Below, one piece after another: positions 44,314 through 51,390 of a DNA stretch of 64,000 bases. The notes below the pieces were generated by a model that worked only from the letters and a program-made list of their open reading frames with translations, ran no database searches and had not been told where the DNA came from. Position 1 is the stretch's first letter, and each line of letters opens with the position of its first letter. Source of the stretch: Edaphobacter flagellatus. GTDB taxonomy: Bacteria; Acidobacteriota; Terriglobia; Terriglobales; Acidobacteriaceae. The DNA is taken from positions 4,073,501-4,137,500 of the forward strand of contig NZ_CP073697.1 of NCBI RefSeq assembly GCF_025264665.1. Direction: 5' to 3'. Both the position numbers and the translations under genes were made by a program.

Positions 44314-44359
44314 GGGCGCTGCTTTGGCAGCGTTCTATAAGTAGCGCCCCCCTCATTTT
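44314..44359 (+). terminator. Terminator after the monooxygenase gene
   Basis: GGGCGCT (44314-44320) and AGCGCCC (44343-44349) enclose a smaller hairpin GCTGC-TTTG-GCAGC; CCCTCATTTTT follows, ending at the last codon of the convergent receptor gene. Confidence 0.75.
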
Positions 44360-47300
44360 TAGAAGAGTAATTTAAGGCCGAACTGAAGCTGTCGCGAGGT
44401 AGTTGAGGTTGCTGTGATGACTCCTGCTGTTGGACTGGCGACAACCGCAGCGGCCTGATTTGCCGGTGTGCCCTGGGTTGGGCCAGACGTAAAGACGACA
44501 GGGTTGGGTGTTGTGAAGTTTGTGTGGTTGAAAACGTTGAAGAATTCGGCGCGGAACTGTGCGCGAACCCGCTCGGAGATCTGCGTCACCTTGAGTAGAG
44601 ACAGGTCGGTGTTAGTGAGCCCAGGTCCGGTGAGCGTATCGCGGCCAAGGTTGCCCACCGTTCCGTAAGCAGGGGCGAGAAATGCTGCGGGATTGAAGTA
44701 CTGCTGCGGTGTGCGCGGATAGAGATTGCCGCGGAAGTTCGGGTTGATATCGGGGCGTACCGGGTTACGCGTATCGCCCGACCCCGTGGGGTTGTAGCCA
44801 AGCTGTGGCGAGAAGGGAAAGCCGGATTGGATGGCGATGATGGTGCTCAGCGTCCAGCCGCTGACGGCACGGTTGGTGAATCCGCTTAGGTTCGACCCGA
44901 TCAGGTGGCCGCTGCCGAAAGGAAGATCGTAGGTTCCATTGATCGATGCCAAGTGGCGAATATCAGTAGCTGCGGGACCATAGTCGATGTCTGGATTCGT
45001 CGGGTAGGAGACGAAGGCGGGGGTGTTTGCACTAACGCTGGTGTTCCATGCCGAGCCGTTGTCGAGATTCTTCGAGAAGGTGTAGTTGCCGCGAATCTGC
45101 AGACCGCGTGTGAAGCTGCGTCGCACATCGACGACGAGGCCGTTATAGTTGCTGTAACCCTTCGAGAACCACGAAGTGGTGTTGGCAACGTTCGGGTTCA
45201 CCTTGACGGTGGTGGGGTAGTAGATTCTCCCATTGACGATGGTCGCCTCGGGTTCGTTAAGGTCGCCTGAGAGGATCTGGTTATAGCCATGCGAGCCGAT
45301 GTAACCGAGTGTCAGCGATGTACTGGGAGCAAGCTGTTGCTCGATATGCAGGCTCCATGAAAGTACGGTTGGCGTGGCGATATCGGTTTGCACATTGGAG
45401 GGGGAAATGAGAGTACCCGGTGAAGGCTTCGTGGAAGAGGTGATATTGAGGCTCGATACTGGTACATTCGCGAGCGAAAGCGTTGTGTTGTAGGGTGCGG
45501 TCTGATCGAGACGGTAGTTCAGGTTGTCGAGCAAGGAATAGTGAATGCCGAAGCCAGCGCGCACACTGGTCTTGCCATCTCCATGTACATCCCATGCGAT
45601 TCCTGCGCGTGGAGCAGGGAGGAATTTGGCGCGATTGTCGGTGAAGGGAGACGAGCCGATGGTTGGATTTGTGTTGATGATGCCGTTGGTGAAGCCATAG
45701 TTGGAGGCACGCCCCTGGGCTTCGTTGAAGCCGTTGGTGGCTTCAATGCGCAGGCCAGCGCGGAGTTCGATGCGCGGAGTCAGGCGGATGGTGTCTTCGA
45801 GGTATCCGGCTCCCATCCACGAGCGCCAGTTCAGACGAGTGGGTGATGGAACGACGGTGAAGGTCTTCACGGTGCCTTGCAGAAATGTTGTGAGCGATGC
45901 AAATGACGCCTGACCGAACTGGTTCTGCGCCAGGTTGTCGTTCGATTGCAACCGCTGCAGCCAGCCGCCTGCTTCGATCTGATGGCGTCCGATGGTCCAG
46001 AAGATGTGATCGTCGAACGTGAATAGATTGCGCGTGGTGGCATTGTTGGAGCCAACGTTTGCGCCGGCTCCAGTGATCTGCGAAGAGCCGTTGGAGGCAG
46101 TCGAACCGGCGATAACGATGGCGCCGACAGGCTTGCCGGCAACCCAGCCATTTACAGTGGCTCCGCCGAGTGGAGAGGACGAGCCGAGGAAGAAGAAGGA
46201 TGCGCGTGAGAAGCCGAAGCGTGCGGTGTTGAGCAGGTGCGGGGAGAAGACGTGCTGCTCCTGCAGGCTGGCGACTTGTTCACGCAGGTCTTCGTTGATG
46301 GAGGCGAGCGGGTTTTGCGTTGGGGTGTCGGCAGTCGAGTCGTCGACGGTGTAAACCCCAAAGAAGAGATCGCTTGGCGTCACGTTGTAATCGAAGCGCG
46401 CCGTGGCGAAGTCTTCGCGGATGCGCTGCATGGGGTTGGAATACGCAAGTCCGATGCCGGTCTGGTTGCCGGTTGCATCGAGCAGGGCAGGGCCGTTTTG
46501 TGTAGGCCAGAGATTGAAAAGTGGAGCGACGCCTGATGCGACTCCGTAGTTTTTGCGCGGGCCCGAGGGGTTGGACGGATCGGGGAGGAAGCCCTGGCGT
46601 GCCTGTGTGTCGGGGACGAAGGTGACATTCGAGAGGCCGAGGTTCTGGCGGTAGCCTTCGTAGTTGGCAAAGAGGAAGAGCTTGTCTTTGCGGATAGGGC
46701 CCCCGAGGGAGCCACCGAAGTTGTTGCGCTGAAAGGCAGGAATGTGTGCCTGATCGAAGTAGTTGCGTGCATCGAGTGCGGAATTGCGCAGGTATTCGTA
46801 AACTGCACCGTGCAGATGGTTTGTCCCCGAAGCCGTCACGATGGAGATCTGTGCGCCCTGACGTTTGCCGTAGCTGGCGGAGTAAGTGTCGGTGACGACG
46901 TTGAACTCGCGCACGGCATCGACGCCGAGCAACTGGCCGCTGGTTCCGCCGGGCGTAACGTTGATCAGTGAAGCACCGGTATACTCCACGCCGTTCAGCA
47001 GGAAGAGATTGTCCTGTGGGCGGCGGCCGGAGATTGCAAACATATTGCCGACGGAAGAGTTCGATGTGCCGATCGAGCCAGAGCGCTGGTTGGTGTAATT
47101 GACGACGCCGGGATTGAGCGTGATCAGCTGATCGTAGCTTCGTCCGTTGAGGGGAAGCTGCTTGATCTGCCGCTCATCGACGAGGCCTGCTGTCTGTTGT
47201 GTCGATAGATTGACGACGGCAGGCGTATCTTCGACACTGACCTGCTGCTGTACGGCATCGACGGTGAGCTGGATATCGATCTGCTTGCTTTGGCCGACAG

Positions 47301-47616
47301 TCAGCGGGATGTCGGTGCGATGCTGAACGGAGAAGCCTTCGTGCTCAACGGTGATGGTGTAGGTGCCGATGGGGATCGAGGGTGCGGAGAAGCGGCCGTC
47401 GGGGCCGGTGGTGAGGCGACGCTCGTTGCCGGTTTCATCGTTGTGGACGGTGACGTTGCTGTCGGAGAGCGCGGCTCCGGTCGGGTCGGTGACAATGCCA
47501 GAGAGTGTGCCTCCGACAACCTGGGCGTGGCTGATGCGTGGTGCGACAGCAGTGAGGACAAACAGTGCGGTCAGTAGAGTCTTTGCAGATGCGAGTCTGC
47601 GAATGGGGGCGTGCAT
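44359..47616 (-). CDS. Oar-like TonB-dependent receptor
   Basis: 1085 residues. Signal peptide ending near ISHAQ, then a carboxypeptidase-regulatory-like beta-sandwich (GTLSGIVTDPTGAALSDSNV, YTITVEHEGF), a plug domain (LPLNGRSYDQLITLNPGVV, DNLFLLNGVEY) and a large outer-membrane barrel ending RQLQFGLKLLF. Such receptors are numerous in acidobacteria and take up large or scarce ligands. GGAGA is 6 bases before the ATG. It lies downstream of the YeiH-family gene in the same direction with a Cys-codon mini-ORF between them, so its ligand may be sulfur-containing; that is inference. Confidence 0.93.
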   Translation of the reverse strand: MHAPIRRLASAKTLLTALFVLTAVAPRISHAQVVGGTLSGIVTDPTGAALSDSNVTVHNDETGNERRLTTGPDGRFSAPSIPIGTYTITVEHEGFSVQHRTDIPLTVGQSKQIDIQLTVDAVQQQVSVEDTPAVVNLSTQQTAGLVDERQIKQLPLNGRSYDQLITLNPGVVNYTNQRSGSIGTSNSSVGNMFAISGRRPQDNLFLLNGVEYTGASLINVTPGGTSGQLLGVDAVREFNVVTDTYSASYGKRQGAQISIVTASGTNHLHGAVYEYLRNSALDARNYFDQAHIPAFQRNNFGGSLGGPIRKDKLFLFANYEGYRQNLGLSNVTFVPDTQARQGFLPDPSNPSGPRKNYGVASGVAPLFNLWPTQNGPALLDATGNQTGIGLAYSNPMQRIREDFATARFDYNVTPSDLFFGVYTVDDSTADTPTQNPLASINEDLREQVASLQEQHVFSPHLLNTARFGFSRASFFFLGSSSPLGGATVNGWVAGKPVGAIVIAGSTASNGSSQITGAGANVGSNNATTRNLFTFDDHIFWTIGRHQIEAGGWLQRLQSNDNLAQNQFGQASFASLTTFLQGTVKTFTVVPSPTRLNWRSWMGAGYLEDTIRLTPRIELRAGLRIEATNGFNEAQGRASNYGFTNGIINTNPTIGSSPFTDNRAKFLPAPRAGIAWDVHGDGKTSVRAGFGIHYSLLDNLNYRLDQTAPYNTTLSLANVPVSSLNITSSTKPSPGTLISPSNVQTDIATPTVLSWSLHIEQQLAPSTSLTLGYIGSHGYNQILSGDLNEPEATIVNGRIYYPTTVKVNPNVANTTSWFSKGYSNYNGLVVDVRRSFTRGLQIRGNYTFSKNLDNGSAWNTSVSANTPAFVSYPTNPDIDYGPAATDIRHLASINGTYDLPFGSGHLIGSNLSGFTNRAVSGWTLSTIIAIQSGFPFSPQLGYNPTGSGDTRNPVRPDINPNFRGNLYPRTPQQYFNPAAFLAPAYGTVGNLGRDTLTGPGLTNTDLSLLKVTQISERVRAQFRAEFFNVFNHTNFTTPNPVVFTSGPTQGTPANQAAAVVASPTAGVITATSTTSRQLQFGLKLLF

Positions 47617-47713: not shown

Positions 47714-47740
47714 TTAGAGGCGACAACAACAGATCGGCAT
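47714..47740 (-). CDS. Eight-residue Cys-rich mini-ORF, candidate leader peptide
   Basis: ATG 47740 opens MPICCCRL then TAA, with three consecutive TGT codons. It begins 14 bases after the YeiH-family stop and about 100 bases before the TonB receptor start. Runs of one amino acid's codons in a tiny ORF before a structural gene are the mark of attenuation leader peptides; here the residue would be cysteine. No clear Shine-Dalgarno is present; it might be translated by termination-reinitiation from the preceding gene. Alternative: chance ORF. Confidence 0.45.
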   Translation of the reverse strand: MPICCCRL

Positions 47741-47754
47741 GAAGCTAAACCGGG

Positions 47755-48852
47755 TCATCGAGCGACTCCGTGGTTATAGCTCCAGTAGACGAGGCCGAGT
47801 GTAATGAGGGCGATGACGATTTCACCGAGGATGCCGACGACGAGTGGCCGCCAGCCCTGTCCAGTAAGGTCGCGCAGATTGGTGCGGAGGCCGACTCCTG
47901 CGAATGCGGGAAGGAAGGCCCACTTCGACAGGTTGGCGAGACTGGCGAGTTGTCCGCGGCTGAAGAAACCCAGCGTTGCCAGAATGGCCAACGCGATGAA
48001 GCCGAGAATGAACTTCGGAAACTTGCGCCAGAGGAAGAGGCCCTTATGTTCAACATCAGGTGCGAGTCCTCGCGACGACCAGTAGATGGCGTAGGCCAGC
48101 ACGATAAAGCCGATAAAGCCGGAGCGTGCCGTCTTCGCAAGTACGGTCCAGCGTCCGGCCTCTTCGCCGTAGAGCGAGCCGGTGACGAGTGATTCGGCCG
48201 TGTTGTCGACGGCGAGGCCTGCCCACATACCATAGCCCTGCTGGCTCATATGGAGTGCGTGGCCAATCGCAGGAAAAGTAAAGAGAGCAATAGCGCCGAG
48301 AGTGAGGATGGCGGCGATAGCGGTTGAGGTGTCCTCTTCTTCAGGCTCGATAGCTCCGCGTGCGGCCATGATGGCAGTAACGCCGCAGATGCTGGAGCCG
48401 ATGGCAAGCAGGCTGGTCAGTTTGGGAGGCAGACGAAAGATACGCCCCATCAGGTGCATGAACGAGAGCGAGAGGATGAGTTCGACGGCGACGAGCAGCA
48501 AAGAGAGCCCGCCGATATGAAGGATGTCCTGAAGTAGAAAACGCGTACCGACGAGGACGATGCCGAGCTTGAGCCAAAGTTCATAGGTGGCGACGCCGGG
48601 ACGAAAGATCGACGCGACTCCCAGTGTGTTGCCAATGGCCAATCCCAGCAGGATCGCCCAGAGGACATATTCCAGATGCGGGAAGGGAATGCTGGGATAC
48701 GTCGCGCGAAGATGCGTGAAGGTGTGTTCCAGTAACTTGCCCAGGAGGCCGATTCCGAAGAGCAACACAATGCCCGGCAACACTCGCAAAAAGCGAGCGG
48801 CCAGAGATGACGCAGGTGCTTCGATCGGAGCCGGAATGGTGTGGGCGGACAT
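47755..48852 (-). CDS. YeiH-family transporter (putative sulfate exporter family)
   Basis: 365 residues with about ten membrane helices. Family features include ILLGLAIGNTLGV, KLGIVLVGTRFLLQDIL, AIGSSICGVTAIMAARGAI and AGVGLRTNLRDLTGQGWRPLVVGILGE. Proteins of this family are annotated as putative sulfate exporters; E. coli YeiH is linked to sulfur compounds, but transport has rarely been shown. It starts 8 bases after a 39-residue membrane peptide, and both lie downstream of a poly-Cys leader ORF and terminator, consistent with control by cysteine supply. Confidence 0.93.
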   Translation of the reverse strand: MSAHTIPAPIEAPASSLAARFLRVLPGIVLLFGIGLLGKLLEHTFTHLRATYPSIPFPHLEYVLWAILLGLAIGNTLGVASIFRPGVATYELWLKLGIVLVGTRFLLQDILHIGGLSLLLVAVELILSLSFMHLMGRIFRLPPKLTSLLAIGSSICGVTAIMAARGAIEPEEEDTSTAIAAILTLGAIALFTFPAIGHALHMSQQGYGMWAGLAVDNTAESLVTGSLYGEEAGRWTVLAKTARSGFIGFIVLAYAIYWSSRGLAPDVEHKGLFLWRKFPKFILGFIALAILATLGFFSRGQLASLANLSKWAFLPAFAGVGLRTNLRDLTGQGWRPLVVGILGEIVIALITLGLVYWSYNHGVAR

Positions 48853-48860
48853 GCTCGAGC

Positions 48861-48980
48861 TTAGAAGGAAATGGGCGGAATGATATTGAAGCGGATCAGC
48901 CCGGCAAGGGTGAGAGCGATAACGACGGCGATCAGGTCGATATTGATGCGGCTCTTGATGGTGGTATCTGGAGTTGCCAT
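48861..48980 (-). CDS. 39-residue membrane peptide upstream of the YeiH-family gene
   Basis: A small ORF of 39 codons: a polar N-terminus (MATPDTTIKSRINID), one membrane helix (LIAVVIALTLAGLI) and the tail RFNIIPPISF. GAGGA lies 5 bases before the ATG, a good ribosome-binding site, and the stop is only 8 bases before the transporter start. It is probably co-translated with the transporter and could be an accessory subunit. I do not recognise a family. Confidence 0.75.
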   Translation of the reverse strand: MATPDTTIKSRINIDLIAVVIALTLAGLIRFNIIPPISF

Positions 48981-49029: not shown

Positions 49030-49072
49030 AAAAAATAAAACCCACGCAGGCTTCGAGCGCTGTACGTGGGTT
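49030..49072 (-). terminator. Attenuator terminator T2 before the transporter operon
   Basis: On the minus strand AACCCACG and CGTGGGTT (inner CAG/CTG pairs) form the stem, followed by TTATTTTTT. It lies between the poly-Cys leader ORF and the 39-residue peptide gene, so transcription must pass it to reach the transporter. Confidence 0.9.
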
Positions 49073-49083
49073 CCTGAGATTCT

Positions 49084-49106
49084 CTAAGCGATGTTTTCTA
49101 GCTTAG
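49084..49106 (-). other. Hairpin overlapping the leader-ORF stop
   Basis: CTAAGC and GCTTAG form a 6-bp stem whose arm includes the TAA of the poly-Cys ORF, just before terminator T2. A ribosome finishing the ORF would disrupt it, so it may be the protector or antiterminator element. Confidence 0.45.
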
Positions 49107-49189
49107 GAGAGGGAGAGTCCAACGCAGCAGCAACAGGTGCCCATACAACAGAGGCAACAGGTGCTGGTCGCGATGTTCTTCGATCCCAT
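49103..49189 (-). CDS. Poly-cysteine leader peptide, 28 residues
   Basis: ATG 49189 opens a 28-codon ORF: MGSKNIATST, then CCLCCMGT, then CCCC, then VGLSLS and TAA. Eight of 28 residues are Cys. The -10 element of the promoter ends 11 bases before the ATG, so the mRNA starts within a few bases of it and is near-leaderless. A terminator follows 31 bases after the stop, then the transporter operon. Poly-Cys leaderless ORFs are known cysteine-responsive attenuators in mycobacteria; by analogy this senses charged Cys-tRNA. A Cys-rich peptide product is a less likely alternative, as no modification genes are nearby. Confidence 0.75.
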   Translation of the reverse strand: MGSKNIATSTCCLCCMGTCCCCVGLSLS

Positions 49190-49200
49190 ATCTAATTAGA

Positions 49201-49229
49201 AGAGTAGAGGGTTCCTTAGGATGCGTCAA
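49201..49229 (-). promoter_or_regulatory. Promoter P2 of the poly-Cys leader
   Basis: TTGACG and TACTCT are separated by exactly 17 bases on the minus strand. Transcription should start about 3-6 bases before the leader ATG. Confidence 0.8.
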
Positions 49230-49250: not shown

Positions 49251-49362
49251 AAAAAGGAAACCCACGCAGCGCGGTGGGGGCTGTTGCGTGGGTTTTCCAT
49301 TTGTAGCAACGAAGTGGGTGGACTTCGTTATGGCCGACTCAACCCGAAGGGAGTCCTGCCAC
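49251..49362 (-). ncRNA. Structured RNA ending in terminator T1, possible pseudoknot
   Basis: From promoter P1 a ~110-base RNA can be read. Elements in order on the minus strand: GGTGG (49363-49359); a hairpin GACTC-CC-TTCG-GG-TT-GAGTC; an 8-bp hairpin AACGAAGT/ACTTCGTT whose six-base loop CCACCC can pair with the first GGTGG, giving a pseudoknot; and terminator AACCCACGCA/TGCGTGGGTT (49294-49259) followed by TCCTTTTT. This is the layout of a riboswitch or small RNA. It does not match any riboswitch class I can recall in detail. Confidence 0.6.
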
Positions 49363-49368
49363 CTGAAT

Positions 49369-49542: not shown

Positions 49543-51390
49543 TTACAGGCGGCAGATCAGTAGCTCGCGCTCATAAATCATTTCGGGCGGCAGGTGATCG
49601 TGGAGAGCAAGAAAGAGCTCTTCGTGGTCCATGACCTCCTTACGCCATGCCGCGCGATCGACGGTTTGGAGCTCGTCAAAGATCTCACGCAGCCGCTCGC
49701 GTGGAAGCGTGATGCCTTCCCAACGGATGTCCTCGAAGTGCGGCGTCCAGCCGATGGGGGTCTCCTTGCCCTGGGCGCGGCCACGGACGCGGTCGACGAT
49801 CCACTTCAGCACACGCATGTTTTCGGAGAAGCCGGGCCAGAGGAAGCGGCCGCTCTCATCTTTGCGGAACCAGTTGACATGGAAGACGCGGGGAGTTGAA
49901 GAGAGGGCGCGCTGCATCTTGATCCAATGCCGGAAATAGTCACCCATGTGATAGCCGCAGAAGGGCAGCATGGCCATAGGGTCACGGCGTACCTTGCCGA
50001 GTGCTCCACCGGCAGCGGCTGTGGTCTCCGAGCCCATGGTTGCTCCGGCGTATACTCCACCAGACCAGTTGAAAGCCTGGAAGACGAGCGGCATGGTGGT
50101 GGAGCGGCGGCCGCCGAAGATGATGGCGGAGATGGGCACACCCTCCGGGGCCTCCCAGTGTGGATCGATGGTGGGGCACTGGCTGGCCGGGGCGGTGAAG
50201 CGTCCATTGGGATGCGCGGCGGGTTTGCCGGTGTTCTTGCCGATCTCGGGCGTCCATAGATTGCCCTGCCAGTCGAGACACTCGGCGGGAGGCGTATCGG
50301 TCATGCCCTCCCACCAGACTCCGCCGTCTGGGGTAAGTGCGACGTTGGTGAAGATGGTGTTCTTCGCCAGCGTGGCCATCGCGTTCGGGTTCGTCTTTGC
50401 AGAGGTGCCAGGAGCGACGCCGAAGAAGCCGGACTCGGGGTTGATAGCGCGAAGCTGTCCGGTAGAGTCGGGCTTGATCCATGCAATGTCGTCGCCAACG
50501 GTCCATACCTTCCATCCTTCGAAACCTGCGGGCGGGATCATCATGGCAAAGTTCGTCTTGCCGCAGGCGGAGGGGAAGGCAGCGGCGACGTAGGTCTTCT
50601 CGTGCGTAGGGGACTCGACGCCGAGGATGAGCATGTGCTCGGCCATCCAGCCCTCGTCGCGGGCTATGTTGGAGGCGATGCGCAGGGCGAAGCACTTCTT
50701 GCCGAGCAGAGCATTGCCGCCGTAGCCGGAGCCATAGCTCCAGATCTCACGGGTTTCGGGGAAGTGGACGATGTACTTCTCGTCGTTGCAGGGCCAGGGA
50801 ACGTCCTGCTGGCTAGGCTCGAGCGGGGCGCCGACGGAGTGCATGCACGGGACGACGCGCTTGATGTCTTTATCGATCTCGGCGAAGACCGGGGCGCCAA
50901 TACGAGCCATGATGCGCATATTGACGACGGCATAGGCGGAGTCGGTAAGCTGCACACCGATCTGCGACATCGGCGAACCGATCGGGCCCATGGAGAAGGG
51001 GAGGACGTACATCGTGCGTCCGCGCATGCAGCCGCGGAAGAGTTGCTTGAGCTTGCGCCGCATGACGAAGGGGTCTTCCCAGTTGTTGGTGGGACCGGCG
51101 TTGTCTTTGGAGAGGGAGCAGATGAAGGTCCGGTCTTCAACGCGGGCGACATCGTTGGGTGTTGAGCGGGCATAGTAGCAGCCGGGCCAGAGCTTCTGAT
51201 TGAGGCGGATAAAGGTGCCAGCGTCGATCAAGCCCTGGCAGAGAGCGTCATATTCGGCCTGCGAGCCGTCGACCCAGTGGATGGAGTCGGGCTGCGTGAG
51301 GTCGGCCATCTTTTCGACCCAGCGAATGAGGTGCTTGTTTGTGGTGGGAGGGGCCGAGATCAGAGTGGCTTCGGATTTTTCGTTCTTCAT
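49543..51390 (-). CDS. pckG: Phosphoenolpyruvate carboxykinase (GTP)
   Basis: 615 residues, the usual size of the GTP-dependent enzyme, which makes phosphoenolpyruvate from oxaloacetate in gluconeogenesis. Motifs: [18 protein letters not shown] (nucleotide P-loop with the reactive Cys), [10 protein letters not shown] (metal site), [15 protein letters not shown] and [25 protein letters not shown] lies upstream of the ATG. A stem CTGATCTGCC/GGGCAGATCAG overlaps the stop codon (49531-49562) and may form its 3' end. Confidence 0.98.

Follow-up and report, generated by a model that had tools for sequence, protein, structure and literature searches.

Attenuators of the trp and his type combine a leader ORF, an antiterminator and a terminator ahead of genes of the sensed amino acid's pathway. 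For cysteine, leaders of several kinds have been described. Mycobacteria carry polycysteine leaderless short ORFs (Canestrari et al, 2020, as cited in PMC9031893, PMC13236596 and PMC9094748), whose mechanism is given in the citing excerpts as translational. Actinobacterial cys leader peptides with Cys runs precede cys operons and cbs and, in the excerpted text, have their Cys codons near the stop and lack a conserved terminator hairpin (PMC1262725, 2005). Finally, uORFC-8-2 is a Cys-Cys uORF followed by a terminal U run that was read as an intrinsic terminator; as far as the excerpts of that paper go, it is predicted to act by ribosome-mediated transcription attenuation, is found before cysS only and in Rhodobacterales only, and has its two Cys codons within the first stem (PMC8632094, 2021). 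In acidobacteria, almost no predicted attenuator had an associated function (PMC2965389). The initial annotation of the DNA studied here stated that no poly-Cys attenuator was known from acidobacteria with a YeiH-type transporter. We found no report of cysteine leaders in this phylum among the matches listed in the open-licence literature searched, which does not prove absence.

The locus lies in a 64,000-nucleotide stretch of Edaphobacter flagellatus DNA (the window, whose coordinates are used throughout). Its features, in the order of transcription, are as follows:

49201..49229, minus strand: sigma-70-like promoter TTGACG-N17-TACTCT, read from the sequence; the leader ATG follows 11 bases on
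49103..49189 (stop included), minus strand: poly-Cys leader ORF MGSKNIATSTCCLCCMGTCCCCVGLSLS, 28 codons, with a counterpart in 13 of 13 close yeiH loci, its own counted
49145..49159, minus strand: region 1, CCxCC (Cys codons 11, 12, 14 and 15), the presumed sensing codons, delimited by Cys conservation in 36 leaders
49114..49132, minus strand: region 2, codons 20-25 and part of 26, the antiterminator strand within the ORF, from duplex and covariation tests
49084..49106, minus strand: hairpin CTAAGC/GCTTAG starting at the stop codon, from sequence and folds
49058..49074, minus strand: region 3, the terminator 5' arm and loop, which pairs with region 2 in the same duplex and covariation tests
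49030..49072, minus strand: intrinsic terminator (regions 3:4) with U-rich tail, from sequence and compensatory changes in the stem
48861..48980, minus strand: 39-codon hydrophobic (membrane) peptide gene carrying a GAGGA ribosome site and heading the operon, with homologues in relatives
47755..48852, minus strand: yeiH-family transporter gene (PF03601, Pfam 247.4 bits)
47714..47758, minus strand: second Cys leader MTRFSFMPICCCRL, of the CCCR type, its start overlapping the yeiH stop (ATGA)
44359..47616, minus strand: gene for a TonB-dependent Oar-like outer-membrane receptor, assigned by Pfam, behind the second leader

All the elements named in the initial annotation, that is the promoter, the 28-codon ORF with Cys runs CC, CC and CCCC, the stop codon inside a hairpin and the terminator, were located where it had placed them. 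On the minus strand, TTGACG (49229-49224) and TACTCT (49206-49201) are separated by a 17-base spacer, and a TTGAC ... TAnnnT pair lies at most 45 bases from the leader start in 31 of the 35 named relatives having the leader. A transcript starting 7 bases beyond the -10 box would begin about 5 bases ahead of the leader ATG at 49189. The Cys codons are numbers 11, 12, 14, 15 and 19-22, and the stop occupies 49105-49103. The hairpin at the stop codon (CTAAGC, 49106-49101; GCTTAG, 49089-49084) forms in computed folds, and a similar hairpin, judged by eye, occupies the same position in many relatives. Behind it, the terminator arms AACCCACG (49072-49065) and CGTGGGTT (49046-49039) are followed by a U-rich tail that reaches 49030. 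Compensatory changes occur at two of the nine stem pairs and six of the nine are invariant; in some relatives the stem GCCCACG/CGTGGGC replaces ACCCACG/CGTGGGT. Rfam gave no match at the gathering score across the window, and its weak matches near the leader were at chance level (best E 0.64).

A transporter operon had been expected behind the terminator. The yeiH gene is indeed there, with the correction that the first gene of the operon is the one for the 39-codon membrane peptide (48980-48861). Homologues of this peptide, 38-62 codons long and with C-termini resembling RFNIIPPISF or RLNIIHHIGW, separate the terminator from yeiH in all 13 loci and also precede the second yeiH; the peptide itself had no Pfam or NCBIfam match. 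Against TIGR00698, YeiH scored 120.2 bits, under the NCBI curated cut-off of 232.6. The receptor matched OMP_b-brl_4 (608 bits) and CarboxypepD_reg (72 bits), and fell short of the cut-off for Plug (22.5 against 23.9 bits). In the second leader the Cys codons are near the stop, and no terminator was seen; its counterparts stand directly behind the yeiH of relatives and end in CCCCR, CCCCA or CCCRR. Leaders of this CCCR/CCCCR type (47714-47758 on the minus strand, and L142) end directly before the stop, with no terminator seen. They sit between yeiH and a TonB receptor gene or before other yeiH genes, and the stretch after them often appears pyrimidine-rich.

The layout of the yeiH leader is that of trp/his-type attenuators, from which it differs in having region 2 within the ORF, a probably near-leaderless start and cysteine as its amino acid. 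With the mycobacterial polycysteine ORFs, as described in the excerpts cited above, it shares a short frame with Cys runs, a place upstream of cysteine genes, occurrence several times per genome and, to judge by the distance from promoter to ATG, probably a (near-)leaderless start. The mycobacterial kinship suggested by the initial annotation holds for these probably near-leaderless poly-Cys ORFs and not for the mechanism: the mycobacterial type is cited as translational, has no terminator and carries its Cys run beside the stop, whereas the yeiH leader has an intrinsic terminator and an antiterminator, Cys clusters in mid-ORF and its last Cys codon at position 22 of 28. The CCCR-type leader of the window (47714-47758) is closer to the mycobacterial leaders than the yeiH leader is. 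Compared with uORFC-8-2, the gene is yeiH rather than cysS, and four presumed sensing codons are combined with a separate Cys cluster as antiterminator strand; the acidobacterial leaders moreover sit before assimilation, transport and peroxiredoxin genes. As far as we searched, the mechanism is known in kind and new in phylum, architecture and scope.

We then examined conservation. A YeiH protein search of 200 family genomes gave matches in 126, of which the best 30 were taken as loci; the corresponding sets were the best 30 of 89 genomes for sulfite reductase and the best 30 of 72 for cysD, and since only best matches were used, the sets lean toward near relatives. Leader, terminator and small-peptide gene occur in the same order in all 13 yeiH loci with at least 66% identity (the window's own and 12 relatives). 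By a fixed criterion, a poly-Cys ORF was found upstream of 12 of these 13, compared with 1/13 on the reverse strand, none 1 kb upstream and 0.2 expected from shuffles; in the thirteenth locus (L005) the ORF is present just beyond the scanned stretch. Below 66% identity the same criterion picked out only 2 of 16 loci (16 of 17 being scannable), and several further loci of this group bear the other leader type, ending CCCR. Among named records, which overlap the genomes of the protein search and are not an independent set, the leader was found in 35 of 43, and in 35 of 36 at 65% identity or more. They include Edaphobacter modestus, Edaphobacter aggregans, Granulicella mallensis, Terriglobus albidus, Bryocella elongata and Paracidobacterium acidisoli. 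In the sole exception at or above 65% (L292), yeiH is directly downstream of an APS kinase gene. The loose pattern used on these records also flagged L309 and L312, neither of which was counted as a leader.

Within 36 non-redundant leaders, picked by a pattern that demanded two of the four CCxCC positions, these positions are Cys in 36, 35, 35 and 36 cases, the first always as TGT; in the unselected set, 13 of 13 loci carry CCxCC or CCxPC. A terminator was detected between leader and yeiH in 29 of 35 cases, as against 3 when the stretch was reversed and 1.1 in shuffles, and four of the six leaders in which the finder gave none fit a looser pattern. The Cys codons are thus retained where the terminator is retained, as the initial annotation had asked of relatives.

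Regions 2 and 3 co-vary. In 12 species (omitting L008, a near-copy of L006), own region 2:3 duplexes had an energy of -17.7 kcal/mol compared with -15.3 kcal/mol for swapped ones (P 1.2e-4). The same comparison over 36 non-redundant loci, left from 51 after 13 failed the leader/terminator pattern and 2 duplicates were set aside, gave -20.2 against -18.8 kcal/mol, with 12 of 100,000 permutations as low; in these loci several pair types occur at variable positions flanking the conserved ACCCACG on both sides. Only 3 of the 12 region 2s, and 1 of the 12 region 3s, had their own partner ranked top. Shuffling the codon order of region 2 gave P <0.05 in 9 of 12 species and was not significant in L003, L005 and L007. 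The third Cys cluster varies, reading C-R-C in L003, L-C-R in L005 and C-R-A-D in L013, and in these three the terminator 5' arm or loop is changed to match. Judged from these alignments, the third-cluster codons follow RNA pairing. The initial annotation had instead assigned the pairing with the terminator 5' arm to TGTATGGG (codons 15-17), and the conserved pairing uses codons 20-25. Present in only L001-L004 of the 13 loci, TGTATGGG was dropped as a partner of the terminator because its duplex is neither the best nor conserved.

We also computed folds under an assumed ribosome footprint, in which 17 bases upstream and 12 bases downstream of the first A-site base were masked. When the A site held the first CCxCC codon and the 3' arm was not yet made, region 2:3 pairing had a mean probability of 0.36-0.84 in all 12 species. 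For the stop codon in that site the value was at most 0.21 in 11 of 12, the exception being the window's own leader (0.56), and with no ribosome it was at most 0.1 in 8 of 12. In full-length RNA at equilibrium, the terminator prevails in 11 of 12 species even if a ribosome occupies the first Cys codon; a ribosome placed at the stop leaves it almost fully formed in 8 of 12, the other four having values of 0.22 (L007), 0 (L009), 0.43 (L011) and 0 (L012). Given this dominance of the terminator in the finished RNA, the model requires kinetic, that is co-transcriptional, folding. The static folding calculations agree in part with an attenuator model and in part contradict it.

We consider it very probable that the yeiH leader works as a trp-type transcription attenuator, mediated by the ribosome and specific for cysteine. 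From the sequence we infer the transcription start, translation, stalling and direction of the response in the following scheme. The near-leaderless ORF would be translated as soon as it is transcribed. With ample Cys-tRNA, the ribosome would move on through region 2, the third Cys cluster, and cover it on its way to the stop while the terminator arms emerge; the terminator would then form and keep the peptide-yeiH(-TonB receptor) operon off. With scarce Cys-tRNA, it would stall at CCxCC (region 1) and leave region 2 free to pair with region 3 before region 4 is made, giving read-through. That slow translation at Cys codons alters termination was already the prediction of the initial annotation; it is favoured by the retained Cys codons, the 2:3 covariation and the sulfur genes, with the pairing codons corrected as above. 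The operon would share a cysteine regulon with those of sulfite reductase, cysDN and peroxiredoxin.

Another group of leaders comes from the same genome, where poly-Cys leaders precede yeiH, sulfite reductase, cysD, peroxiredoxin, a second yeiH and the TonB receptor of the window. Besides those listed above, they are:

MANGRICRTTACRMCCCDAVCCCLCPTS: leader before sulfite reductase
MVFAAQRMCCCCRMLPCPCVRCCC: leader before cysD, with no terminator seen by eye
CCCCC-containing ORF: leader before peroxiredoxin
MRTHLQSSLLAVPLHCCCRY: leader before the second yeiH

The single-operon scope first given to the attenuator is therefore right for the yeiH operon leader and too narrow, as it extends to a set of operons in the genome. 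The list is a minimum, and the genome-wide total may be higher. The pattern TGYTGYTGYTGY occurs at 79 places in the genome against 41 for its reversed pattern, so that Cys runs alone mean little; TGYTGYTGYCG occurs at 100 places, and with these two counts Cys-codon runs alone were rejected as a leader signal. Thirty of the 79 TGYTGYTGYTGY places were taken as loci, and the cysD and peroxiredoxin leaders, which fall at such places, were recognised once the genes had been located. Of 95 inspected TGYTGYTGYCG places, 17 were near an ORF end and two were accepted by context (the window and L142).

In relatives, a covariance model built from 12 leaders had matches at E <= 0.01 in 189 of the 398 family genomes, and at least 52 matches exceeded 54 bits; among the weak matches listed are bare terminators. 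A sample of the phylum gave matches in 46 of 396 genomes, the best match outside the family having E 5e-4, and no poly-Cys ORF was listed at the out-of-family matches examined (L199, L200). Because the model contains the leader and is biased toward Cys ORFs, frequencies were drawn from protein-based searches. At 42 places with weaker matches, where downstream genes were assigned by eye, with profile support for representatives only, the gene is a NirA/SiR-type reductase in 12, a TonB receptor in 10, a 1-Cys peroxiredoxin in 6, cysD in 4, yeiH in 4 and a sulfatase in 2, with 4 left unassigned. The NirA family gave the best score for the reductase, yet under every NCBI cut-off, and behind the reductase comes an NAD_binding_7 protein of the kind found in siroheme synthesis.

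For sulfite reductase, a poly-Cys ORF stands just upstream in 21 of 30 loci (the best 30 of 89 genomes), compared with 0/30 on the reverse strand, 0/30 at 1 kb upstream and 0.53 in shuffles. With a looser finder, 18 of these 21 leaders have a terminator, against 3 in the reversed stretch and 0.8 in shuffles, and in the 13 of 21 leaders compared, leader-terminator duplexes were better with the own partner than after swapping, a result equalled by 121 of 100,000 permutations. For cysD, a class-wide search gave a leader in 17 of 30 loci (best 30 of 72), with 1 on the reverse strand, 1 at 1 kb upstream and 0.65 in shuffles; by family, the counts were 14/14 (f1), 3/5 (f90) and 0/11 (f2). A terminator accompanies 6 of the 17 cysD leaders, and the finder gave none in 11. 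The yeiH and sulfite reductase leaders thus each join a conserved codon cluster for one amino acid to an intrinsic terminator and a covarying antiterminator, and through sulfite reductase and cysD the leader class stands before genes that make or import the sensed amino acid. As read from sequence, the attenuator is real, well conserved and one of a family-wide set.

Several single loci were also recorded. In one cysD family (L320-L330, L345, L346, L348), 3 of 14 leaders have a terminator and 11 of 14 have none by the finder; L322, a cysD leader, shows a terminator-like hairpin by eye. Divergent, back-to-back Cys leaders occur in L224 (2349, minus strand, and 2443, plus strand), one before cysD and cysN and the other before a TonB receptor gene. 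Leaders of a similar type precede sulfatase genes in two genomes (L213 and L214, with Pfam support for L213 only), which suggests organic sulfate esters as a regulated sulfur source.

Instead of acting on the terminator, a ribosome stalled in the leader could expose a downstream ribosome binding site or block Rho, the terminator-like hairpin being secondary. This translational or Rho-dependent reading draws on the CCCR-type leaders, which show no intrinsic terminator by eye in 15 sequences including 47714-47758, on the cysD leaders for which neither the finder (11 of 17) nor, in the genome of the window, the eye gave one, and on the mycobacterial leaders, cited in the excerpts of PMC13236596 and PMC9031893 as translational and in that of PMC1262725 as possibly Rho-dependent. 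Before yeiH, however, there is a canonical terminator with a co-varying antiterminator, and we regard the alternative as unlikely for this leader.

Metal or thiol binding has been proposed for some Cys-rich copper leader peptides, and the high Cys content and conserved CCxCC core would suit a small peptide that is itself the product, metal- or thiol-binding, with an ordinary terminator behind it. The residues outside the CCxCC core nevertheless differ among clades, the third cluster admits Arg, Leu, Ala or Asp (L003, L005, L013) while RNA pairing is kept, and the downstream genes act in sulfate activation and sulfite reduction, not in metal handling, all of which makes this explanation very improbable. 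The high count of TGYTGYTGYTGY relative to its reversed pattern speaks for mere chance, namely a Cys-rich frame over an RNA element that happens to read TGT/TGC. Such an origin is scarcely credible and already contradicted by the low counts in the reverse-strand, 1-kb-upstream and shuffle controls, and by the conservation of Cys at region 1, which is outside the 2:3 pairing. The trp-type attenuator is our preferred, if sequence-derived, reading of the yeiH leader.

What YeiH does under cysteine shortage may be sought in sulfur assimilation or in relief of the sulfite that assimilation makes. In Salmonella, yeiH is described in the excerpts of one study as the chief driver of sulfite resistance (PMC12880088). 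Seven genomes from the two protein searches (G026, G032, G054, G067, G072, G096 and G108) have yeiH and sulfite reductase on one strand and no more than about 2 kb apart, a count that is not a rate over all genomes. We slightly favour relief of assimilation sulfite over import of a sulfur source. In this way the YeiH family, to which NCBI gives the name putative sulfate export transporter, would be tied to cysteine shortage.

On a wider scale, sulfate assimilation, YeiH with its tiny membrane partner, peroxiredoxin and dedicated TonB receptors may be jointly placed under Cys-tRNA by many poly-Cys leaders in cis, perhaps in place of a CysB-like protein; the same genes would swap terminator-based and terminator-free sensors over evolution, and one operon may carry both in series, as in the window. 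We hold this picture to be somewhat likelier to be right than wrong. The cysD leaders offer a natural set, the same gene having leaders with and without a terminator. The locus provides an acidobacterial attenuator with a proposed signal, mechanism and regulon, testable in cultivable Edaphobacter, Granulicella and Terriglobus.

Finally, the region upstream of the leader contains two further features:

49543-51390, minus strand: GTP-dependent PEP carboxykinase gene (pckG)
49255-49365, minus strand: 111-base element between pckG and the leader, with two hairpins whose loops are C-rich

The 111-base element has its own terminator, whose stem ACCCACGC/GCGTGGGT is the same as that of the leader terminator. 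It was found in 8 of 200 family genomes, these being all 8 sampled from this genus, with a mean column identity of 94%. Some of the genomes that have it lack a close yeiH attenuator, and in two the pckG end is more than 1 kb off. We consider this element a candidate small RNA.
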